The notes below the pieces were generated by a model, which saw nothing but the letters and a program-made list of their open reading frames with translations, had not been told where the DNA came from and ran no database searches. A program made the position numbers and the translations under genes. DNA of 23,808 nucleotides, taken from IMG/VR virus record IMGVR_UViG_3300005253_000297, positions 1 through 23,808 of that record, one strand, 5' to 3'. This document shows positions 7,122 to 23,500 of the stretch, piece after piece (position 1 is the stretch's first letter; every line of letters starts with the position of its first letter). The DNA comes from a virus.

Positions 7122-7688
7122 CTACGGCTGCTGCGGGATGTTCAGCTCGACGACGGCGAGAGCGTTCGGTGCGTCTCCTGCACCGGTCGTGAGACCGAGG
7201 AGGGCGTAGGTCGGTGCGGTCCCCGCGGCCTCTGTCTGCGCCTTGCCTGCGGTCGCGGACGCGATGACTTGGAGGCCAACCGTACCCGCGGCGCCGGCCG
7301 CCGACGCATTGGTGAACTTCGTGGAGCCCGGACCCTCGACCTGCACGAAGCAGAAGTGTCCAGCGGTGATCGGGGCAACAGCCTCGTCGTTCTGGAAGAC
7401 TCCGGCGACGGAGTTCCTGTTGATCGCAGCGGTCGTGACGAGGTAGATCGCCCGATTGGACCACCAGGCGACGGCGCCCTTGAAGGGAGCGACCGTCATG
7501 CTGGAGTCGGATCGGACGAGCTGGTAGGTCTTGGCCCGCCCTTCCTCATCGGACGGAACCCCCGCGGTGGTCTGCTTGACCGTGACACGGCTGCCAAGGA
7601 GACCGTCCGCGTAGAGCGACGGCGAGGAGTACGTCTCGGGGTCTCCCGTTCCTGTCCAAGCCCCCTGCTGGCGGATGTTGTTGGGCAT
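7122..7688 (-). CDS. Probable capsid decoration / minor virion protein
   Basis: This 188-residue protein begins MPNNIRQQGAWTGTGDPETY, with an AAAGGAG site upstream of the ATG. It lies directly after the major capsid protein gene, the usual place for decoration (head stabilising) proteins. Residues 46-58 (S-D-E-E-G-R, then Q-L-V), 70-84 (KGAVAWWSNRAIYLV) and 107-120 (ITAGHFCFVQVEGP) form a beta-rich domain. That same core is recognisable in the leader-bearing protein at 22273..22836, which makes the two likely paralogs. The C-terminal part is Ala/Gly/Thr-rich and predicted beta. Confidence 0.7.
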   Translation of the reverse strand: MPNNIRQQGAWTGTGDPETYSSPSLYADGLLGSRVTVKQTTAGVPSDEEGRAKTYQLVRSDSSMTVAPFKGAVAWWSNRAIYLVTTAAINRNSVAGVFQNDEAVAPITAGHFCFVQVEGPGSTKFTNASAAGAAGTVGLQVIASATAGKAQTEAAGTAPTYALLGLTTGAGDAPNALAVVELNIPQQP

Positions 7689-7712: not shown

Positions 7713-8771
7713 CTAGCGGGTGATGCCGTAGAGAGCGCGCATGAGACGCATGGCGCGCGCCGTGAAGTTGCCTCCGAAGAGGATCTGACCGGCGACGACG
7801 GTGGAGTCCTGGGCGACCTTGAACCCCGTCCAGCCGAACTGGTACTTCGGCGAGGACGAGAAGTAGAGGTTCAGGAAGGCGTTGTCACCCTCCTTGCCCG
7901 GGTTGAGCCACCAGAAGGTCTCGGCCGCGGCGTTGTAGTTCCCGATGTCGGGGTCGTTCACCCCGTCCTGGCCAGGGGCGTACTGGTCCTCGATGATGGT
8001 GGCCTGCTTGAACTTCAGGCCCGGGTATCCGATCGTCGGCTCCAGGGTGTCGATCCGCTGTTGCGGCTGGAAGTTCTCGTTGATGAAGCCCATGCAGCGG
8101 TTCGTGGTGCAGCCGATGACCGGGTGCTCGTCACCGATGACGCAGGACTGGTAGGAGTGCTCCAGCGTCCTGTAGTTGATCGCGCCGTTCACGTTGGGAT
8201 CCGAGATGAGGCCGGTCGGAGAGTTGAGCGCCGGGGAGACGTCGACCCGGGCCTGCTGTCCGTAGGACGTGAAGGTGTTGCCATTCCACGTCGTGTTCGT
8301 CCCGTCGGTGAGCGCTTCCTCCAGCCCGTTGAGAGCGGCTGAGCGGTCTGCGCCCGCGAGGTTCTGTCCGTGATGGTAGAGAGCGATCGCGAGAATGGCG
8401 GAGAGGGTGAGTGCCGCGTCTCCGAGATGAGCGTTCACCAGTGAGAGGACAGCTTCCGGACCCCTGACGATCACCTCGACGTCCTCGGTGTACTCTGTGA
8501 CGTTCACCTCGGCGAAGCGGGGATCGAAGAGGAGGCCAGCCATCGTCTGGTGCTTCGTGATGTCGAAGGTGGCACCCTTGCGGTAGAAGCCGCCCTTCAT
8601 GGGCTTGAAGAGGAAGTTCTCCTGGATCTGTGGACCACCGGTCCAGACCTTGTAGCGGTTCCTCTTCAGAAACGCCAGGATGGGGGAGTTCTTGAAGAAG
8701 TTGTCGACGAGACCCGGCATGATCTTCTTCGTGGTGAGCGTGTTGATCTCGTCGAGATTGGGATCGGCCAA
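7713..8771 (-). CDS. Major capsid protein
   Basis: This 352-residue protein follows a scaffold-like gene and precedes decoration-like genes. It starts with TTG after a perfect AAGGAGG at six-base spacing, an unusual start for what should be the most expressed phage gene. The N-terminal arm has LDEINTLTTKKIMPGLVDNF and FKNSPILAFLKRN, then QIQENFLFKPMKGGFYRKG; the centre has the long helix-like VLSLVNAHLGDAALTLSAIL; and the C-terminal part has FWWLNPGKEGDNAF. This fits an HK97-fold coat protein of the group found in uncultured podovirus-like phages. The N-terminal arm is copied in the small protein at 22975..23211. The fold is inferred from neighbours and pattern. Confidence 0.85.
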   Translation of the reverse strand: MADPNLDEINTLTTKKIMPGLVDNFFKNSPILAFLKRNRYKVWTGGPQIQENFLFKPMKGGFYRKGATFDITKHQTMAGLLFDPRFAEVNVTEYTEDVEVIVRGPEAVLSLVNAHLGDAALTLSAILAIALYHHGQNLAGADRSAALNGLEEALTDGTNTTWNGNTFTSYGQQARVDVSPALNSPTGLISDPNVNGAINYRTLEHSYQSCVIGDEHPVIGCTTNRCMGFINENFQPQQRIDTLEPTIGYPGLKFKQATIIEDQYAPGQDGVNDPDIGNYNAAAETFWWLNPGKEGDNAFLNLYFSSSPKYQFGWTGFKVAQDSTVVAGQILFGGNFTARAMRLMRALYGITR

Positions 8772-10647: not shown

Positions 10648-11160
10648 ATGCCGACAGGCGTTTACCCACGCAAGCCCCGGCCACCACAGGATCCCATGCC
10701 GCGGTTCTGGGCCAGCGTCCACAAAGCACGAGACGGCTGCTGGCTCTGGCGGAACGGAAGCAAGCGGGGCTACGGCGGCTTCTGGTTCGTAGACAAGACG
10801 ATCCTCGCACACCGCTTCGCTTATGAACACTTAGTCGGGCCAATCCCGAAGGACCTGTGGGTCCTTCACCACTGTGACCAGCCCCGTTGCGTCCGCCCAG
10901 ACCATCTTTTTCTTGGAACAGTCCTCGACAACGTGCGAGACGCGATCAGGAAGAATCGCTGGAACTATGAGCGTCGGACCAGTAAGAATTACGTCCGGGG
11001 AGAACAGAACCACAAAGCCAAGCTGAACGAGAGAAAGGTCAGGACCATTCGGGCACAGGCCAACCACGTTTCACAGGCAAAGCTGGCGTTCCGGTTCAAG
11101 GTGACAAAATACGCCGTTTTCTCAGTCATACACAGGCTGACTTGGCGCCACGTCGCCTAG
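10648..11160 (+). CDS. HNH homing endonuclease (HNH_3-like) with C-terminal DNA-binding segment
   Basis: This 170-residue protein is the only clear gene on the plus strand. MPTGVYPRKPRPPQDPMPRF leads to the CWLWRNGSKRGYGGF strand and the HNH core WVLHHCDQPRCVRPDHLFLG (residues 71-90: His74/His75, Cys81, His86), then NVRDAIRKNRW. This matches the HNH family with H-H-C-D, C-V-x-P-x-H-L. Residues about 124-168 (KAKLNERKVRTIRAQ, LAFRFKVTKYAVFSVIHRLT) look like a helix-turn-helix for site recognition. It would nick or cut a homing site and spread as a selfish gene. It inserts between the portal and the small gene at 10393..10548; its TAG shares a CTAG palindrome with the portal stop on the other strand. 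Confidence 0.9.
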   Translation: MPTGVYPRKPRPPQDPMPRFWASVHKARDGCWLWRNGSKRGYGGFWFVDKTILAHRFAYEHLVGPIPKDLWVLHHCDQPRCVRPDHLFLGTVLDNVRDAIRKNRWNYERRTSKNYVRGEQNHKAKLNERKVRTIRAQANHVSQAKLAFRFKVTKYAVFSVIHRLTWRHVA

Positions 11161-14405: not shown

Positions 14406-14656
14406 CTTTTCCTCCACTGTCCCAGACCGCCTCCAGAGGAGATGCCGTAGACCACCATCATCCGCAGCTCTTTGGAAGGACGGTAGAACATATTCTTCTG
14501 AATCCACTCGGCCTGACAGTCCTCCTCCCAGTCGAGGAAAAGCTCGCCAGACAAGACGCCGTCCTTGTCCGAGACGACGAGGAGGGGACGCTCGAGGAGC
14601 GGGTCGTCATGAATCCGGAGGAGCACGACCTCGCCAACGTGGGACCTCTTGCCCAT
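14402..14656 (-). CDS. Small protein downstream of terminase nuclease, unknown
   Basis: This 84-residue protein (MGKRSHVGEVVLLRIHDDPL...) starts at an ATG overlapping the nuclease stop (TAATG) with GGAGGGG upstream. The sequence LLVVSDKDGVLSGELFLDW and MFYRPSKELRMMVVYGISSG suggests a small beta-barrel or SH3-like fold. It overlaps the start of the next gene by four bases. No family is recognised. Confidence 0.65.
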   Translation of the reverse strand: MGKRSHVGEVVLLRIHDDPLLERPLLVVSDKDGVLSGELFLDWEEDCQAEWIQKNMFYRPSKELRMMVVYGISSGGGLGQWRKR

Positions 14657-15588
14657 TAGTACCACCCCTCCTGCACCGAGTAGGGATCTTGCTTTCCCGA
14701 GACCTCATGCGCTCCCGCGTCAGAGTTCTGGAAGTCCAACCGGACCCCGGTCTTGGAGAGGAGCGCCTTCTTCCTCAGCTCTTCCTCAGCCAGCCGGCGG
14801 CGCCGCTCCGAGAGAGGCTCGGACCCCAAGAGGCGCGTCTGGGTCGCGACCTCGACGGAGATGGCTCCCGCCATGAGACAGTCGTCGTGTGCCCCTGCGG
14901 CCGCCTCGGCCTCCCAAGCGGCTCCGACCGAGATGAAGTCGCGCATCTCTTCCATGGTGAGTGGGGAGTTGATCCGGTAGTCTGGAAGACCGGTGCGCGG
15001 GTCCTCAGCGGTCACGGAACGGTAGTACCGAGCGAGCATCCGGGCGCGGGTCCTCGTGGTGGTGTACCACCCGTAAGCCTTCGTATAGCGAGCGCGCGGG
15101 TCCCTGGCGTCCTCGTGCTGCCAGATGTAGAGGTTGTCGTAGCCGCAGTGATGCTGAAGCTCGGACTGGGTGGCGAGTCCCTGCCCGTTGCACTCGACGG
15201 CCACGAGGGCTCCAAGGTCGTCGTCGTCGTGGTAGAAGCGTGCAACAGGGTCCACGTAGTAGGCCAGCTCGATCGGGTCCACCGAGTCCGAGACGAACTG
15301 GGCGACCTGCTCCTCAGGCTCGGTGAGGGTTCCGATCCGTAGGACGTCGATCACGGAGCGGTCGAGCCCCATTCCCGAGGAGACATCCACCGAGACGATG
15401 TAGGAGCAGCCACGCTTCTGAACCTCCCAGACGAGGAGCTTATCCATGAGGCTCTCGAGATAGTCGGGGTGGTCGGCCTCGGTGGAAGCGTTCCAGCGCT
15501 CACGTGGGATGACGTTGAAGCCGTACCCAGGCGGGATGGAGATGGGCTCAGGCTGAGAGACGAGATGCTGCTGAGGTAGCTCAGGCAT
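14656..15588 (-). CDS. Large terminase, nuclease domain (separate gene)
   Basis: This 310-residue protein is an RNase H-fold DNA-packaging nuclease. The motifs are: SYIVSVDVSSGMGLDRS with Asp68; GALVAVECNGQGLATQSELQ with Glu132; and WEAEAAAGAHDDCLMAGAIS with Asp235/Asp236. This gives the two-metal acidic triad typical of terminase nucleases. QVAQFVSDSVDPIELAYYVD and YDNLYIWQHED also match the family. It cuts the concatemer at the start and end of headful or site-specific packaging. No ATPase motifs are present, and its first 60 residues lack any Walker motif. The ATPase is a separate gene at 19195..20442. It overlaps the preceding zinc-binding gene by eight bases. Confidence 0.88.
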   Translation of the reverse strand: MPELPQQHLVSQPEPISIPPGYGFNVIPRERWNASTEADHPDYLESLMDKLLVWEVQKRGCSYIVSVDVSSGMGLDRSVIDVLRIGTLTEPEEQVAQFVSDSVDPIELAYYVDPVARFYHDDDDLGALVAVECNGQGLATQSELQHHCGYDNLYIWQHEDARDPRARYTKAYGWYTTTRTRARMLARYYRSVTAEDPRTGLPDYRINSPLTMEEMRDFISVGAAWEAEAAAGAHDDCLMAGAISVEVATQTRLLGSEPLSERRRRLAEEELRKKALLSKTGVRLDFQNSDAGAHEVSGKQDPYSVQEGWY

Positions 15589-16352: not shown

Positions 16353-17665
16353 GGCCTCGGGACCCTCGCACACTGGAATCCTGCGGTCGTGCAGACGTCG
16401 ATATAGGAGCAGGATGGTGCGTCCCGACACTTCGCCCCTGCGCTGCTCGGGAGGCAGCACCGCGCACGGGAGGGGTTGTCTCCCTTGATGACGAGCCGCC
16501 CGTCGGTCCGCCAGAGGGGATCCCCCCCGACCACCAAGCGCTCGCACGCCACACGATCCTTGAACTCGCAGCCAGGGCCGGAGCAGTCGGGACGGACAGC
16601 ACAGAACGAGCGGCCATCGGTGAAGCCCACGGCGGCGCAGTAGGCCACGTCAGGACCGACGATCGGGGTGGAGTCGCACCAGGGCGTCCCGCACTTCAGG
16701 TTGAAGTGATGGAGCGCCGGGGGAAGAGGAAGCCCACAGTCCCCAGGGGGAGGCACCGGGGTGTCATAAGACCACACGCTCCTCTCAGGCCGGCCTGTGT
16801 ACCCCCCGTCTCTTGAAGAGACAGCATGGTAGCCCTCATAGAGCCCGTCGTCCGCCTTGATGACGACCTCGTCGTCCCAAGGTCCCGCGGCGCATCCACC
16901 AGCAGCGTTGACAGCCTCGGCCAAGAGAGCGAGCGTCTCCAACCAAGGCTGACCTGTCCGGTCCCCGACGGCGCCCTTCGCTGCTTCGAGCTGGTGGCGC
17001 GTCCTGAAGTTCCTGCTCCCAGGGTCCTGGGGGTGAGCCGTGGAGTTGTCGACGAACACCCAGCCCGGGTCCTCGGAATGCGGGACCTCACAGGCCGGTG
17101 CAGGAGTGGGCGTAGGCGTCGGAGCAGGGTCTGGATCCGGAGCGTCCCTCGTGAAGAGGACGGTCACGAGGAAGTGGCAGCGCGCGGAGAGGGACCCGGA
17201 AACCGCGTTGGACGCCGTAACCCGACAGGCAAGATCCACCGTGAGCTGCGTGACCGGGGGACCCCGATACCACTGCTGCTGGAAGGGCCGATAGAGACCA
17301 GCAAGACCCAGCTCCTTGTGAGGAGACCGGCGGTGAAGGACTCGACCCTGCTGATCGTAGACGGCCACGACCGACTCCAGCGTGTCCCCTCGATCATACG
17401 CCGCGAAGGAATCGACACGGTCCACGGAGAGAGGCCCGGGAAGAGCGACGATGCTCCTCCGCGTGAAGACGAAGTCCTCCGACCCCCCCTGAACGGTGAC
17501 CGGCATGTCGGACCAGGAGATTTCGAGCTGGGTGCCGCCACGCCAGAGGAGATCAGGTGTGACTTGTGGGACAGCGTCGGAGCGGAGAAGAGTGAGGAGC
17601 GTCTCCTGTGCCGTGGCGAGTGGGCAGAGGAGGAGCAGGGCGAGGACGGTAGTGAAGAGCTTCAA
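16349..17665 (-). CDS. Secreted cysteine-rich protein, unknown function
   Basis: This 438-residue protein starts at TTG, seven bases after GGAGG, with a TTGA overlap with the protease stop. Residues 1-19 are a Sec signal peptide (MKLFTTVLALLLLCPLATAQ, cut after ATA). Residues ~20-170 form a beta-rich domain (VPQVTPDLLWRGGTQLEISW). A DPDPAPTPTPTPAPACE linker follows. The C-terminal ~250 residues include a ~100-residue region with about 15 cysteines (CGTPWCDSTPIVGPDVAYC, CSYIDVCTTAGFQC), presumably disulfide-bonded. It is coupled to the protease gene and may act with it outside the cytoplasm, but no family is recognised. Such a protein is unusual in a packaging module. Confidence 0.75.
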   Translation of the reverse strand: MKLFTTVLALLLLCPLATAQETLLTLLRSDAVPQVTPDLLWRGGTQLEISWSDMPVTVQGGSEDFVFTRRSIVALPGPLSVDRVDSFAAYDRGDTLESVVAVYDQQGRVLHRRSPHKELGLAGLYRPFQQQWYRGPPVTQLTVDLACRVTASNAVSGSLSARCHFLVTVLFTRDAPDPDPAPTPTPTPAPACEVPHSEDPGWVFVDNSTAHPQDPGSRNFRTRHQLEAAKGAVGDRTGQPWLETLALLAEAVNAAGGCAAGPWDDEVVIKADDGLYEGYHAVSSRDGGYTGRPERSVWSYDTPVPPPGDCGLPLPPALHHFNLKCGTPWCDSTPIVGPDVAYCAAVGFTDGRSFCAVRPDCSGPGCEFKDRVACERLVVGGDPLWRTDGRLVIKGDNPSRARCCLPSSAGAKCRDAPSCSYIDVCTTAGFQCARVPRP

Positions 17666-18930
17666 GGGGTAGCCTCCTCCCTTGCATACGCCAACCGGTT
17701 CGGGCTGCCAGGACCAAGCCCACTGAGGACGTCCTTCGTGGAGCGGGTGATGATCTTCTCAGCAACCTCGGCTGGAGTAGAGTTCGGGGCGCGCGCGAGG
17801 GTGAGAGCAGCAATGCCTGTAGCGTGGGGCGCTGACATACTCGTCCCGTTCTTGCTCCCTCCTATTGATCTGATTCCCACACCCGGAGCGTAGAGATCGA
17901 CAACCTCGCCGTGGTTCGAGAAGGATGCTTCTCGATCCTTGTCGTCTGAAGCACCGATGGTGATGGCTTGCACCACGCGAGCGGGACTGGATCCCGCCGC
18001 GTCCGCGTTGGAGTTCCCTGCCGCAGCGACGAACGTGGCCCCGGAGGCGATCACTTTACAGACCGCGTCGTCGAGGACCGGAGAGGCGCCGCCACCCCAG
18101 CTCGCGTTCACGACCTTCCCGAGGGCAGCCGGACCTGGATCGTGGGCCGCAATCCACTCGAGAGAGCGGATCGCATCGGTGTCGCTCCCAGACCCGTTCT
18201 TGTCGAGGAAGCGGACAGAGTGGATGGTGCAGTCGCGACAGACTCCGAAGCTCGACCCAGCAGCAGTACCGGCGACATGTTTCCCATGACCCGTGCCCTG
18301 CGGATCGTCGGAGCACCCAGCGAAGATAATCGTGGAGAAGCAATCCTCGGACAGCCGATCTCCAAACTCGGGGTGCGGCGCGACTCCTGTGTCATTGATG
18401 TAAACGTGGACCCCTTCTCCCCCGGTCCCGGGGTCGAAGACACCGTCCAGGGGAAGCGTTCTCTGATCGATCCGGTCGAGGCCCCAGCTCTTCACATCGA
18501 AGGTCTCGACTCTTCCCTCCTGCTGGACGTACTTGACGCGCGGATCGGCAAGCGTGGCAAGGAGGTTACGCACGTCCATCTTGGCGGAGAAGCCCCCAAC
18601 GAGGCCGAGCGTCTGAACGCTCGTCAGCCCTTTGAAGCTGGACGACGGGCTCTGCAAGACGGCCGCCGAGGCAGGCTTGAGAACCACGATGTAGCGGTCA
18701 GGAATGGGATTCTTGACCAGGACGAGGCCCGCGAGCGCCGGGGGGTTCTCACAGTTGTAGGGTCCACTTCCCCCAGGGTCCGGCATACAAGCCGGATCGG
18801 GGTTGTCCGGACACGGGTCGATGATGTCGGGGATTCCATCCCCATCACCGTCGGGAAGGCCCGGGATTCCTCCACAGCTCGGCAGGATGACGAGCAGCGG
18901 GAGTAGCAGGGCAAGAGCAGTCTTCTTCAT
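17662..18930 (-). CDS. Subtilisin-like serine protease (S8, proteinase K-like) lipoprotein
   Basis: This 422-residue protein starts at an ATG after GGAGG. Residues 1-19 form a lipoprotein signal with box LPSC (Cys19). DGDGDGIPDIIDPCPDNPDP (28-47) is a thrombospondin type-3-like calcium motif. Residues ~78-143 (RYIVVLKPAS, then VKYVQQEGRVETF) look like an inhibitor_I9 propeptide. The catalytic domain has Asp180 in VYINDTGV, His215 in GTGHGKHVAGT, oxyanion Asn306 in AAAGNSNAD and Ser364 in NGTSMSAPHATG, all in proteinase K order, so it should be active. It is presumably anchored to the outer membrane and secreted. It lies between endolysin and Cys-rich protein genes with four-base overlaps. Surface degradation during entry or lysis is plausible, and a captured host gene is likely. 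Confidence 0.9.
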   Translation of the reverse strand: MKKTALALLLPLLVILPSCGGIPGLPDGDGDGIPDIIDPCPDNPDPACMPDPGGSGPYNCENPPALAGLVLVKNPIPDRYIVVLKPASAAVLQSPSSSFKGLTSVQTLGLVGGFSAKMDVRNLLATLADPRVKYVQQEGRVETFDVKSWGLDRIDQRTLPLDGVFDPGTGGEGVHVYINDTGVAPHPEFGDRLSEDCFSTIIFAGCSDDPQGTGHGKHVAGTAAGSSFGVCRDCTIHSVRFLDKNGSGSDTDAIRSLEWIAAHDPGPAALGKVVNASWGGGASPVLDDAVCKVIASGATFVAAAGNSNADAAGSSPARVVQAITIGASDDKDREASFSNHGEVVDLYAPGVGIRSIGGSKNGTSMSAPHATGIAALTLARAPNSTPAEVAEKIITRSTKDVLSGLGPGSPNRLAYAREEATP

Positions 18931-19202
18931 TGAGACACCTCCACTTGAAGATGGTCGTGGTCGTCCTCACGGACGAGGCGTAATCCGAGGCGGCGCGCGA
19001 AGCTCTTGGCGCGTCCCAGCGGGACAGGTTCATCATAGACGACATCGGCCCCAAGCCAGACGAGATGAAAAGAGTTCGAGGCACCACCCACGTCGGCATT
19101 GTGCTTGGCCGTCCGTCCCCAAGAGCTGACCGACCCGCGGGTGGCAGCGCAGTAGGCGATGAGTACCGAGGCGAACTCGACAGGGCTGAAGATTCTAGCC
19201 AC
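18927..19202 (-). CDS. Small endolysin-like peptidase M15 (D-Ala-D-Ala carboxypeptidase type)
   Basis: This 91-residue protein starts with GTG. The sequence WGRTAKHNADVGGASNSFHL, then VWLGADVVYDEP, and DDHDHLQVEV has the M15 pattern S-x-x-H-x6-D and H-x-H. His46, Asp53 and His84 would be zinc ligands, and His82 or Asp81 the catalytic base. It is compact, lacking a separate cell-wall binding domain, as in single-domain M15_3 phage lysins. It would cut peptide crosslinks in peptidoglycan during lysis. The start overlaps the terminase ATPase gene by eight bases and its stop overlaps the protease start (ATGA), so all are co-transcribed. Confidence 0.85.
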   Translation of the reverse strand: MARIFSPVEFASVLIAYCAATRGSVSSWGRTAKHNADVGGASNSFHLVWLGADVVYDEPVPLGRAKSFARRLGLRLVREDDHDHLQVEVSQ

Positions 19203-20442
19203 TGCGCGTCACCTCCCGCATGGGTACGATCTCGAGCTGACCGAGGAGCGGACGAGCCTGATCCCGAATCCTTTGCTGGACTGAAGCCTTGAAGACCGAG
19301 CGCCCAGAGTGCTGGAAGCACTCGTCGTCGGTCACCGAGCCGAACTCCTCGATGAAGGTCTTCAGGTCGTCCTCTGCCTCGTAAGACTCGCGTGTCACCT
19401 CGTACCAGTAGAGCTGATCCTTGGTGAGCGAGTACTCCTTTCCAAGATAGGACGGGGAAGTCTCTTCACAGTGCTTCGCATGGGCAAGACTGCTCGTGCT
19501 GGGGGACCAGTTCACTGGAGGGGGGATGGAGTATCGAGGCTCCACGTACCACGGAATGAAGATGTTGACCTTGAACCTTGTCTTGTCCTCCAGCGATGCC
19601 TTCCAATGCGAGTGCCACCAGTTGTGCCGGCCCTTCGCGGTGGACTCGAAGAACGCGAAGGTCGTGGGGAGCCGGTGGAGCGTCGGGAGCAAGGAGCCGC
19701 GAATCTGACCGATCTGGACGGCTTCCCACGTCGAGAGTTCTGAGAGGTGGACGAATCCCAGGGTCTTCCCTCGACCGAGCTGACCCCTCTTCCCCTCGGT
19801 TCCACGTGTGGACTTCCCAGATCCCACCCAGATATGGCACTCGGTGTCGAGCTTCATCTCCCCGTTCTTCACGTGCTCGACGACCTTCGGAGCGAGCCAC
19901 CAGGGGAGGTTCTCCACGATTCTCTCAAAGATGTCGAACATGAAGGCCGAGGTGTTAGGATCGTCCGCGGCGATGAGCCCGAAGAGGTGCTCCTCGGTGG
20001 TCGTGCGGTAGGCCGCGACCGCTTCAGCGAAGGTGCTCCCGCCCACCTGGCGGGCGCCCTTTAAGAGGTTGCAGAGGATCCCGTCGTGAAGACCCCCGTC
20101 ACGGACCTGAAGCTCGGCGTCGGCGAGGCCCTTCAAGATGAAGCTCTGGGTATCGAGGAAAGGGAACATCCTCCCCAGACGAGCGCCCGCGAGGTTGATC
20201 ATCGCGTAGCGCGTGGCCCAGTACTCGAAGGAGGACTGGACCAGGAGACGCTCGTTCACCACGAAGCACGCCTCCTCGTCGTCCAGCTCTCTCCGCTTGT
20301 TCCCCTTCCCGTCCACTGCTTCCTCGAGTCGATGAACCATCACGTCCACCTCGTCGATGGAGTGCGACTGGACAGTGAAGCCCGGCTCGAAGGCGTCCTC
20401 CAGCTTCCGGAGCTTCTCAGCACAGACTTCAGGATGGAACAA
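19195..20442 (-). CDS. Large terminase, ATPase domain (separate gene)
   Basis: This 415-residue protein has a Walker A-like KGARQVGGST (128-137), a Walker B-like GFVHLSELSTWE with Glu235 (Ser in place of Asp before it), and coupling motif III FFESTAKG (264-271), in the order of viral packaging ATPases. It powers DNA translocation into the procapsid at the portal. It ends about 40 residues past VFKASVQQRIRDQARP with no nuclease motifs; the nuclease is at 14656..15588. The frame begins with TTG at 20442 without a ribosome site, while GAGGAGG-ACTAG-ATG sits at 20495 in another frame. A missing base in CGACCCAATGG would join them (see findings), so the true start may be 20495. Confidence 0.85.
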   Translation of the reverse strand: MFHPEVCAEKLRKLEDAFEPGFTVQSHSIDEVDVMVHRLEEAVDGKGNKRRELDDEEACFVVNERLLVQSSFEYWATRYAMINLAGARLGRMFPFLDTQSFILKGLADAELQVRDGGLHDGILCNLLKGARQVGGSTFAEAVAAYRTTTEEHLFGLIAADDPNTSAFMFDIFERIVENLPWWLAPKVVEHVKNGEMKLDTECHIWVGSGKSTRGTEGKRGQLGRGKTLGFVHLSELSTWEAVQIGQIRGSLLPTLHRLPTTFAFFESTAKGRHNWWHSHWKASLEDKTRFKVNIFIPWYVEPRYSIPPPVNWSPSTSSLAHAKHCEETSPSYLGKEYSLTKDQLYWYEVTRESYEAEDDLKTFIEEFGSVTDDECFQHSGRSVFKASVQQRIRDQARPLLGQLEIVPMREVTRSG

Positions 20443-21463: not shown

Positions 21464-21799
21464 TCACCCAAACCGAGGCAAGAACGATCCCGTAGGACCG
21501 CGCTCGCGCGTTGGCGCCTCTTCCTTCTTGGCCTGCGGAGCCTCGTCGCCCTCGCCCTCGCCCTCGAAGACCTCATCGTCAGGCAAAGAGCGCCCGCGAG
21601 ACATCGCCTCGAACTCGGCGAAGTCCTTGTCGGTCTGGGCGACGAACTCCGAAGCGTCAGGCGCGTCCGGGATGGGCGTTGCACGCTCTTTCAGGGCGAG
21701 AAGCTCCAGGGCGACTCGAATCCCACGAAGCTCCTCGGCGATCCCGGACAAGACGCCCAGGAATTGCTTCTTCTCGCTTTGGAGGAGGTTCAATCTCAC
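21464..21799 (-). CDS. Small acidic coiled-coil protein
   Basis: This 111-residue protein starts at a GTG overlapping the upstream TGA (GTGA). The first 40 residues form a helix (MRLNLLQSEKKQFLGVLSGI, then EELRGIRVALELLALKER). The rest is acidic and disordered (EVFEGEGEGDEAPQAKKEEA). No family is recognised. Its size and position upstream of the packaging genes are typical of small regulatory or assembly proteins. Confidence 0.6.
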   Translation of the reverse strand: MRLNLLQSEKKQFLGVLSGIAEELRGIRVALELLALKERATPIPDAPDASEFVAQTDKDFAEFEAMSRGRSLPDDEVFEGEGEGDEAPQAKKEEAPTRERGPTGSFLPRFG

Positions 21800-22272
21800 T
21801 TCTTGGCTTCAAGTGTCGCCAGCTCCTTTGCAGAGAGACACCCAGCGTCGAAAAAGGGTGGACTCGGTTGGAGGGCGTACCACCGTCCCGGTTCGCCCCC
21901 GCCCTTCTCCGCGCGCTTCACTCCGTTCTCGAAGGAGACGGTGCGGGTCTTCGGGCCAGCCATGTCGCCCGTGTCAGCGGGACCGTTCAGGAAGACGACC
22001 AAGTTCACGGTCCCGGTCGGGTGTCCCGCGGCGTTGCGGTAGCAGAAGACGACGATCGCTGGCCTGACCTGCCCCCTGGAGTTCGTCGGCCACGTCTTCG
22101 GGAGCGTGAAAGCCACAATCTGACCTTCCGAGAGCGCGGAGACCTCTTTCGCGTTCACCTTCGTCTCGGTCTCCCTGGGCTCCGGGTCATCGGGCCTGTT
22201 CTCGGGCTTGGCTGCGCCTTGACTCATCTCACGCTCCTTCTTTCTCGGGTCCAACTTGTCGAGGATGCTCAT
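21796..22272 (-). CDS. Small phage protein with an SH3/MazF-like 'RPAIVV' beta-barrel
   Basis: This protein is 158 residues long from the ATG at 22272, which directly follows the preceding TAA. A second ATG at 22227 has AAGGAG at good spacing and would give 143 residues; either start is possible. After a charged disordered N-terminus, residues ~48-115 read SEGQIVAFTLPKTWPTN, GQVRPAIVVFCYRN and GTVNLVVFLNGPADTGDM, ending GRWYALQP. This resembles a widespread family of small phage proteins with the pattern V-R-P-A-I-V-V, then V-N-L-x-V-F. The function of that family is unknown. It may be related in fold to PemK/MazF, but no toxin catalytic residues are evident. Confidence 0.65.
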   Translation of the reverse strand: MSILDKLDPRKKEREMSQGAAKPENRPDDPEPRETETKVNAKEVSALSEGQIVAFTLPKTWPTNSRGQVRPAIVVFCYRNAAGHPTGTVNLVVFLNGPADTGDMAGPKTRTVSFENGVKRAEKGGGEPGRWYALQPSPPFFDAGCLSAKELATLEAKK

Positions 22273-22836
22273 TTATGCGCCGGGGACAGGGAAGTTCTGT
22301 TTCGCCAGAATAGTCAGGAGTGTCTCGGAGGCATCGTGGTAGGCGCGTTCTACCTGCTCTTCAACCGGCTCACCCGGGACGTAGAGGTCGTGCTCGATCG
22401 GGACGCCGTGGAAGTAGACCTCGCCGGGAGACGGACCCCCAACCTGGATGAACCCCCACTGACCCGGCGCGATCGGCTCGGCGGCGATACCCGCGGGGTG
22501 CGGTCCACCGTAGGCGCTCACGAGCAGCTTCTTTCGGTCCTCCCAGTAGACCATCTTCCCCTTGATGTCTTCGGGAGGGTCCTCGTGGAAGCTGTCCCCC
22601 CGCGCTCTTGTGACGAGTTGGAAGACCCTCCCCTTCTCGTCAGTGAAGCGGGCATCGAGCGGATGGGACGAAGTGAGGGTGAAGTCTGCCTGCTCGAACC
22701 TCTCCCTATTTCCGACGACGGTGTCGTTGTACGCCCTTTCCATCTCCTCGTAGGAGACTCCCTGCTTCACGAGCCCCAGCGCCACCCCGAACCCAGCGAG
22801 CATGCCGAAGAACGATCGCCTCTTGAGCTGCTTCAT
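22273..22836 (-). CDS. Tat-leader protein, paralog of the probable decoration protein
   Basis: This 187-residue protein starts at an ATG after GGGAG. Residues 1-23 (MKQLKRRSFFGMLAGFGVAL) look like a twin-arginine (Tat) leader: R-R-S-F-F then a hydrophobic core. Residues 66-75 (D-E-K-G-R-x-x-Q-L-V), 92-106 (KGKMVYWEDRKKLLV), 115-117 (AGI), 123-125 (APG) and 129-135 (FIQVGGP) line up in order with the virion protein at 7122..7688, so I read them as paralogs. In that protein the same region is cytoplasmic, with no leader. It follows the MCP-arm protein gene by about 140 bases. Function unknown; see findings. Confidence 0.6.
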   Translation of the reverse strand: MKQLKRRSFFGMLAGFGVALGLVKQGVSYEEMERAYNDTVVGNRERFEQADFTLTSSHPLDARFTDEKGRVFQLVTRARGDSFHEDPPEDIKGKMVYWEDRKKLLVSAYGGPHPAGIAAEPIAPGQWGFIQVGGPSPGEVYFHGVPIEHDLYVPGEPVEEQVERAYHDASETLLTILAKQNFPVPGA

Positions 22837-22974
22837 CCTGCGCTCCCATCTGGACGTTTCGGGATGACGAGGTACCGCGGACCTCGACACGGGACGTTCT
22901 TCGGTCGAGTCGGAAACCGGAAAAACGCTTCGCGTGGAAGGTTCAGAGTTTGAGGGTCACCCGGGCACCACATG

Positions 22975-23211
22975 CTATCTCACCGTGTTCCTCTTCAAGT
23001 ACTCCAAGAGCGGGCTCGACTTGAAGAACTGGTCCACCACCCCTGGCATGATGTGCTTGATCGAGAGCGCGTTGATCTCTGCCATCGAGACCCTTTGCCC
23101 CTCGACCGCCGCCAGCTCCACGACCTTCTGGAGAACCTGCGGAGTTGCGGCCGTGACACCGACCGCCACGGTGGCCGCTCCGAAGAGACGAAGGAAGGTT
23201 CTGCGGTCCAT
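22975..23211 (-). CDS. Tat-like leader fused to an N-terminal arm copy of the major capsid protein
   Basis: This 78-residue protein starts at an ATG coupled to the upstream stop (TGATG). Residues 1-24 (MDRRTFLRLFGAATVAVGVT) form a twin-arginine-like leader (RRTFLRLFGAA). Residues 44-75 (MAEINALSIKHIMPGVVDQF, then FKSSPLLEYLKRN) align without gaps to MCP residues 7-38 (DEINTLTTKKIMPGLVDNF, then FKNSPILAFLKRN), with 21 of 32 identical by my hand count. It stops three residues after that block and has no capsid body. It is followed by a leader-bearing decoration paralog, the same order as in the main capsid operon. Possible roles include interference with assembly or a duplicate reduced to a fragment. 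Confidence 0.65.
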   Translation of the reverse strand: MDRRTFLRLFGAATVAVGVTAATPQVLQKVVELAAVEGQRVSMAEINALSIKHIMPGVVDQFFKSSPLLEYLKRNTVR

Positions 23212-23399
23212 CAGTGCCCTCGCCTATCGTGGGAAGCGTTGAGGTGTTCGAAAATCTTGGTTTCGGTTCCGACGAAGGTCATTCCCTCGACCTGGCTCTT
23301 GCAGAAGGGGCAAGCCGCGGTCCACCGTCCCGACTTCTCGTCCTGCTCCGCCACGACTTGGAACCTCCTCGGTGGCTTGCGCTGATCTAGCTTTTCCAT
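23211..23399 (-). CDS. Small C2H2-like zinc-finger protein
   Basis: This 62-residue protein starts at an ATG after GGGGGTGG. After MEKLDQRKPPRRFQVVAEQD, residues ~30-58 read TAACPFCKSQVEGMTF, then EHLNASHDRRGH, giving C-x2-C-x19-H-x4-H, a C2H2-type zinc finger. It could bind DNA or RNA. Its end overlaps the ATG of the Tat-MCP protein (TGATG), so the two are translationally coupled, which hints at a shared function. An in-frame longer form from 23471 overlaps the hairpin region and is unlikely. Confidence 0.6.
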   Translation of the reverse strand: MEKLDQRKPPRRFQVVAEQDEKSGRWTAACPFCKSQVEGMTFVGTETKIFEHLNASHDRRGH

Positions 23400-23421
23400 C
23401 ACGCCACCCCCGTTGAAGGGT

Positions 23422-23500
23422 GAGGCAGCAGCGGGGATTTGAACCTCCGCGGCCAGAACGCTACGACGCAATGCGTAGCGTTGCCGGTACCCTGACCTGC
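23422..23500 (-). other. Stem-loop region with a tRNA-like T-arm
   Basis: Transcribed leftward, the region holds GAGGTTCAAATCCCC, like a tRNA T-arm (T-loop TTCAAAT, stem with one bulged A; positions 23431-23450). Upstream is a perfect 9-bp hairpin, AACGCTACG...CGTAGCGTT with an 8-base loop containing TTGCG (23457-23482). GGCAG and CTGCC ends could pair as an acceptor-like stem. The spacing does not give a regular tRNA: there is no proper D-arm, no 7-base anticodon loop and no CCA. It may be a degenerate or unusual tRNA, an attachment-type sequence or a 5' UTR structure for the next gene. Confidence 0.3.

Follow-up and report, generated by a model that had tools for sequence, protein, structure and literature searches.

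Small phage genes joining Tat-like leaders to segments copied from the major capsid protein of the same phage

The leader genes P1 and P2

The window analyzed here is an entire 23.8-kb virus contig from IMG/VR (23,808 nucleotides; Table 1). Two of its ORFs, P1 and P2, lie on the minus strand exactly where the first-pass annotation had placed them, each behind a plausible Shine-Dalgarno sequence read from the DNA, about 14 kb upstream of the genes for the major capsid protein (MCP) and an adjacent decoration-like protein, which are on the same strand. The block that follows the leader of P1 proved, as had been suggested, to be a copy of the N-terminal arm of the MCP: P1 residues 42-75 align with MCP residues 5-38, with 21 of the 34 positions identical and 28 similar (single BLASTP comparison). 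None of 1000 shuffles reached the score of this arm, and the MCP was the top-scoring gene of the contig against it. The homology extends over these 34 residues only, so that P1 holds a fragment and is not an MCP; tblastn with the whole MCP on the window recovered the arm alone, with no remnant of MCP residues 39-352 after the P1 stop. The P1 C-terminus also weakly matches positions 2-34 of the MCP model NF033394, and no Pfam or PHROG model matched P1 or P2.

Table 1. Features of the window
Feature	Position	Strand	Evidence
P1, 78-aa Tat-leader mini-MCP	22975..23211	-	translation; TIGR01409 above cut-off; BLASTP to own MCP, E 6e-14
MCP N-arm copy within P1 (MCP residues 5-38)	22987..23088	-	tblastn of MCP on window; shuffles, z 23
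P2, 187-aa RR-leader protein with decoration-like domain	22273..22836	-	translation; BLASTP to 7122-7688 product, E 2e-8; 19-protein decoration-like alignment
Decoration-like part of P2	22432..22731	-	tblastn of decoration-like protein on window, 33%, E 3e-5
MCP, TTG start, source family of the P1 arm	7713..8771	-	PHROG 9953 major head protein, E 1e-13; 30-member alignment
Decoration-like protein adjoining MCP, P2 paralogue	7122..7688	-	comparison with P2; name from position
Small cysteine-bearing gene upstream of P1; stop overlaps P1 start (TGATG)	23211..23471	-	read from sequence
158-aa gene downstream of P2, start adjoins P2 stop (same operon)	21796..22272	-	read from sequence

The proposed paralogy between P2 and the decoration-like protein likewise held, with 33% identity over 109 residues in BLASTP, and P2 also matches the decoration-like proteins of relatives (for example, in loci L004, L009, L018 and L027). 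The family search with the 7122-7688 product gave no match, and "decoration" reflects its place next to the MCP; a search for related loci with P2 as the query found nothing. A segment of P2, VSYEEMERAYNDTVVG, weakly resembles MCP residues 198-214 (11 of 2000 shuffles reach the score). The AlphaFold models of the MCP and P2 are of low confidence (mean pLDDT 46 and 58, respectively), too poor for fold searches. The first-pass annotation had also remarked that P1 and P2 repeat the gene order of the capsid operon, an arrangement that does not generalize: elsewhere, there is a single leader gene, or two different adjacent MCP pieces, or three leader genes, and in other phages the leader genes and the MCP gene are sometimes on different strands.

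Twin-arginine (Tat)-like leaders had been proposed for both proteins. The leader of P1 scores above the cut-off of the curated NCBI Tat-signal model TIGR01409 (18.3 versus 16.7 bits); that of P2 contains an RRSFF motif and a hydrophobic stretch but matches none of the curated Tat models. A motif of the RR-x-[FM]-[LIF] type and a moderately hydrophobic stretch (mean hydropathy 1.4-2.1) are present in all 24 leaders compared, and the hairpin motif D-[VI]-E-[KR]-L-L-W-x-P-G of the leaders is strongly conserved. By a simple pattern, an AxA-type cleavage site occurs in about two thirds of the leaders and is absent from P1 and P2. A second leader style, RRAxLRSLLxLPIAAT-D-[VI]-E-K-L-L-W-x-P, was found in L073, L074 and L075. 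The Tat assignment rests on the family models and the motif count, and such a signal would be predicted to take the product to the Tat machinery. A bacterial origin of the leader was considered and rejected, as a degenerate DNA scan of GTDB genomes yielded 12 matches, none of them in an RR-leader gene.

Several other genes of the window were recognized by eye. The large terminase is apparently split into ATPase-type and nuclease-type genes (19195-20442 and 14656-15588, minus strand), as it is in L003 (274-1563 and 1560-2525), with several kb separating the halves in the window; between the two parts lies a gene for a subtilisin-like (S8) protease with a lipoprotein-like start (17662-18930, minus strand). 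Closely downstream of the portal gene, and in the opposite orientation, there is an ORF for an HNH-type (homing-like) endonuclease (10648-11160, plus strand).

Leader genes with capsid pieces in other phages

The observation is real, and P1 and P2 belong to a recurring gene design. In the relative G001 (L003), a gene that combines a leader with the arm of the phage's own MCP lies immediately upstream of the portal gene, and its product runs MRRRAFLKSVLAVPAAALL... and then SFAEINRITIAQIMPRVTRAYFAESPL, the arm of the MCP itself being TEVNSIATKQIMPGVVDQFFKAGPL. Of two further RR-leader genes in G001, one matches the C-terminus of the MCP (residues 328-350, window numbering); the own MCP of G001 is truncated in the contig, and this piece was therefore scored against the MCPs of the window and of G030 (score reached by 5 and 0 of 2000 shuffles, respectively). 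The other (G001b, L157:3328-3582) has a C-terminal part, MERGLEYYRRTLDHVV..., that has no assigned source and is possibly related to the MERAYNDTVVG segment of P2.

Scans with the D-x-E-x-L-L-W leader motif identified 17 different leader proteins, not counting the seeds, and 14 of these contained a piece of an MCP (Table 2). The three without such a piece are G014, G016a and G016b; G016a is similar to another gene in its contig, one with a weak head-tail-adaptor match. The pieces vary in type, coming from the N-arm, from an internal segment or, in one relative, from the C-terminus, and the donor MCPs fall into four groups, namely, PHROG 9953, P22-coat/PHROG 283, GP7/PHROG 212 (a weak case), and one unnamed group that is placed as expected, between scaffold and tail genes. 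In an INPHARED search, the G023 protein strongly, and the G024 protein weakly, matched coat proteins of cultured phages. About half of the leader genes adjoin the terminase or portal gene in the late operon; in G013, 3 bases separate the end of the leader gene from the start of the portal gene, and G001c overlaps the portal start. In G010 and G011, the leader gene is surrounded by replication genes, and it and the MCP gene are on different strands, as is also the case in G009, G014, G016 and G017/G027.

Table 2. Capsid pieces of leader proteins found with the leader motif
Leader protein	Matching MCP segment	Match
G008	residues 3-45	58%, E 2e-15
G010	residues 250-279	63%, E 2e-11
G011	residues 228-257	57%, E 4e-10
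G013	residues 3-34	
G015	residues 3-33	
G017/G027	residues 7-37	
G019	residues 212-278	
G020	residues 5-35	
G023	residues 250-310	
G030	residues 236-252	
G009	residues 9-41	weak, 6 of 1000 shuffles reach score
G024/G026	N-terminus of P22-like coat	
G012, two adjacent genes	residues 21-78 and 245-327 of the G010 MCP	

All genes of a contig could be ranked against its piece in 12 contigs, and in each of these the top score fell to the phage's own MCP (z 3.5 to 28). As a control, 439 further genes of these contigs, with products of 60-260 aa, were scored against the MCP of their contig, and only one exceeded z = 5, a leaderless 113-aa gene of G011 (L148:19554-19895) that is itself a mosaic of two MCP pieces. 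Its parts match MCP residues 345-398 (E 5e-8) and 64-74 (10 of 11 identical, E 2e-4), joined in reversed order. Once truncated MCPs and frame-shifted noise were set aside, the MCP pieces found outside the MCP genes among 27,651 ORFs of 242 loci were confined to leader genes and two small genes that lack a leader, the second one being L106:85-309 (G026). Chance similarity of amphipathic helices is ruled out by the shuffles together with the 439 control genes.

An independent case comes from cultured phages. The only ones in INPHARED with a recognizable MCP of the window type (29% identity) are the Tunturiibacter phages Tunturi_1 and Tunturi_2, lytic podoviruses of an Acidobacteriota host (PMC11924767), and the MCP was the sole criterion for choosing the Tunturi_1 genome. 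Tunturi_1 infects Tunturiibacter psychrotolerans X5P2. The product of its ORF97 (59906-60217, XJP11587.1, annotated as "hypothetical") begins with MATQVVSRRSFFKLFGAAAVVAP... and continues with a copy of residues 5-56 of its own MCP (40%, E 8e-8, z 11.5). Located upstream of the terminase, ORF97 is both the sole RR-leader ORF of its style and the sole ORF with an MCP piece in this genome; the gene is present in a single copy in each of the closely related Tunturi_1 and Tunturi_2. It is absent from the cultured EBPR podovirus 1, P26218 and Tunturi_4, and from the scanned part of Tunturi_3 (positions 1-49000). Tunturi_3 encodes an RR-leader ORF without MCP similarity (L258:42137-42649), so that an RR leader on a phage protein need not imply a capsid piece.

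Evolution of the pieces and hairpin-bearing capsid proteins

The pieces are old and evolve under purifying selection. The P1 arm differs from the MCP by a dS of about 1, near saturation, at a dN of 0.32; across the phages, dS between a piece and the own MCP ranges from about 1 to saturation, with dN/dS, where estimable, of 0.32-0.47, and orthologous pieces compared between phages give dN/dS of 0.17-0.30. Given this near or complete saturation of synonymous sites and a nucleotide identity of 46-68%, the possibility that the pieces are silent cassettes for gene conversion of the MCP was discarded. In one clear pair of phages, the piece behaves like an exchangeable cassette on a constant leader: between G019 and G023, the MCPs are 99% identical (dS 0.27) and the leaders 91% (dS 0.22), but the pieces are just 61% identical (dS 1.25), and in the DNA flanking the piece the identity is back at about 0.9. 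Both pieces are closer to the MCPs of other phages (L237, 51%, and G013) than to their own (43%). There is a weak sign of the same exchange between G017 and G027. No MCP outscores the own one against the pieces of the window, G001, G008, G011, G015 and others. All in all, the combination of a leader with a piece of the own MCP looks like a recurring, selected gene design.

In 17 of the 80 related MCP loci (among them L009, L011, L012, L014, L017, L018, L020, L022, L024, L033, L067, L070, L074, L075 and L077), the MCP frame opens 40-55 codons earlier with a hydrophobic hairpin that leads straight into the N-arm. The hairpin comprises about 45 residues, with the consensus roughly W-L-x-x-H-P-R-L-x-A-L...P-[DE]...I-x-A-I. 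Most of the hairpin starts are preceded by strong Shine-Dalgarno sequences, most of these loci lack a start codon at the usual MCP start, and 98 of 105 pairs show a pN lower than pS. From their sequences, these are apparently membrane-anchored capsid proteins, and the predicted hairpin would thus give the phage group of the window a second route for bringing the MCP arm to the membrane. L073, L074 and L075 apparently possess both a leader gene and a hairpin MCP. Most relatives of the window have neither, and, most contigs being fragments, the absence of a gene is weak evidence.

Possible roles at the membrane and known systems

On balance, we consider it probable that, in several unrelated capsid lineages, an undescribed class of small genes sends pieces of the own MCP to the membrane via Tat, and that in some relatives the MCP itself is a membrane-anchored precursor. 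As the first-pass annotation had stated, no phage system that exports capsid fragments appears to have been described; none was found in the open-access literature.

The role that we favor, if tentatively, is docking of the capsid protein at the membrane. Taken to the Tat machinery by its signal, the product would sit in or across the inner membrane and would display the capsid segment there, and the membrane-held MCP arm (for P2, the putative capsid-surface domain) could be a binding site that tethers the capsid protein, or the portal/packaging complex, to the membrane while the head is being assembled; an MCP with an N-terminal membrane hairpin may serve the same end in close relatives. Our preference derives from the hairpin MCPs, with the hydrophobic extension placed just before the same arm in 17 of 80 loci, from the frequent portal/terminase neighborhood (about half of the genes), and from the precedent of T4, where prohead initiation is membrane-bound, starting on a membrane-bound portal with the aid of gp40 (PMC9958956). 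The specificity of the pieces is in line with such a role, given the own MCP as the best gene in every rankable contig, 14 of 17 leader proteins with a piece against 1 of 439 controls, the age of the pieces and the selection on them, and the coincidence of leader and piece in the one Tunturi_1 ORF upstream of the terminase. Several observations speak against it. Internal and C-terminal pieces (G010, G011, G012a, G019, G023, G001a) are not obviously of use to an assembly dock; the G019 and G023 pieces have diverged to 61% identity despite 99% identical MCPs, and both are nearer to the MCPs of other phages; some leader genes lie among replication genes (G010, G011) or otherwise opposite to the MCP (G009, G014, G016, G017/G027); a protein with a Tat signal normally leaves the cytoplasm and with it the site of head assembly; and most relatives of the window lack both leader gene and hairpin.

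Segment choice, cassette exchange and the replication-module sites in G010 and G011 are better explained by a counter-defence decoy, a possible although less probable role. A decoy and a superinfection factor had been among the suggestions of the first-pass annotation, and either may apply. The leader protein would offer, early on, an MCP segment that a host factor senses, and would sequester the bound factor at or across the membrane by piggy-back export. MCP-triggered immunity is established, as CapRel, CmdTAC and Thoeris are all triggered by the MCP (PMC9712102, PMC11618068, PMC11312562), and a signal on one of the partners can suffice for the Tat export of a complex (PMC4273604). Pieces that differ between phages, one being adaptor-like, are expected if sensors see different segments, and the fast change of the piece on a constant leader fits as well. 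The leader, however, should remove the bait from the cytoplasm, where the known sensors act, and no phage MCP-piece decoy with a Tat leader was found in the open-access literature. Docking is ranked slightly above the decoy on account of the close relatives in which an N-terminal membrane hairpin is part of the MCP itself.

It is unlikely that the target is another phage, with the membrane-held piece poisoning capsid assembly of a co-infecting relative and the producer's MCP being different enough to escape. Interference of this kind fits G019 and G023, near-identical phages that have swapped a piece and carry versions closer to the MCPs of others than to their own. It does not fit the window, nor G001, G008, G011, G015 and others, in which the own MCP is the best or equal-best match and the producer would poison itself. 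Somewhat more doubtful still is a general export signal for small phage proteins, with capsid pieces as one cargo among several and a periplasmic role unrelated to capsids, in which, for instance, the D-[VI]-E-[KR]-L-L-W-x-P-G hairpin would bind a protein of the host envelope. The conservation of this motif and the RR-leader proteins without an MCP piece (G014, G016a, G016b and that of Tunturi_3) would agree with such a role, but pieces in 14 of the 17 leader proteins against 1 of 439 controls would not. Finally, a decayed or transient duplication of a capsid gene behind a leader, without function, one of the options in the first-pass annotation, is very improbable: the P1 arm does end abruptly and some pieces are very short (17 residues in G030), but near-saturated synonymous divergence with low dN (dN/dS 0.17-0.47 overall, 0.17-0.30 in orthologues), recurrence over several MCP families in unrelated phages with a constant leader, operon starts with Shine-Dalgarno sequences, and the lack of an MCP remnant downstream all oppose it.

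The cytoplasm is generally regarded as the place where capsid proteins act. A gene class in which an export-type signal precedes a segment of the own MCP suggests one of two things: that many uncultured phages assemble their heads at the membrane, or that a new weapon, against host defences or other phages, targets capsid recognition. With a single copy in the cultured Tunturi_1 and Tunturi_2, the question is directly testable.

Among known systems, TIGR02811 ("formate dehydrogenase region TAT target") resembles P1 in being a very short protein with a Tat leader, and model residues 10-39 match the P1 leader (E 3e-5); P1 is not a member of this family (24 bits against a cut-off of 48), which has no capsid piece. 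The capsid hijackers of satellites, such as P4 Sid and SaPI CpmB, are small proteins that act on the capsid protein, but they serve as external or internal scaffolds and are not known to have Tat leaders or to copy segments of an MCP; in contrast to these satellites, the phage of the window encodes a terminase, a portal and an MCP of its own. The membrane-bound portal initiator of T4, with its chaperone gp40, is similar to the proposed dock in that a phage protein helps to site head assembly at the inner membrane, and several leader genes described here adjoin the portal or terminase gene; compared by description, gp40 is not presented as a Tat-leader protein or a carrier of an MCP piece (PMC9958956). 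CapRel-SJ46, CmdTAC and Thoeris ThsB are host systems, whereas the leader proteins are encoded by phages; they show the MCP to be a common trigger, so that MCP-like decoys could benefit a phage.
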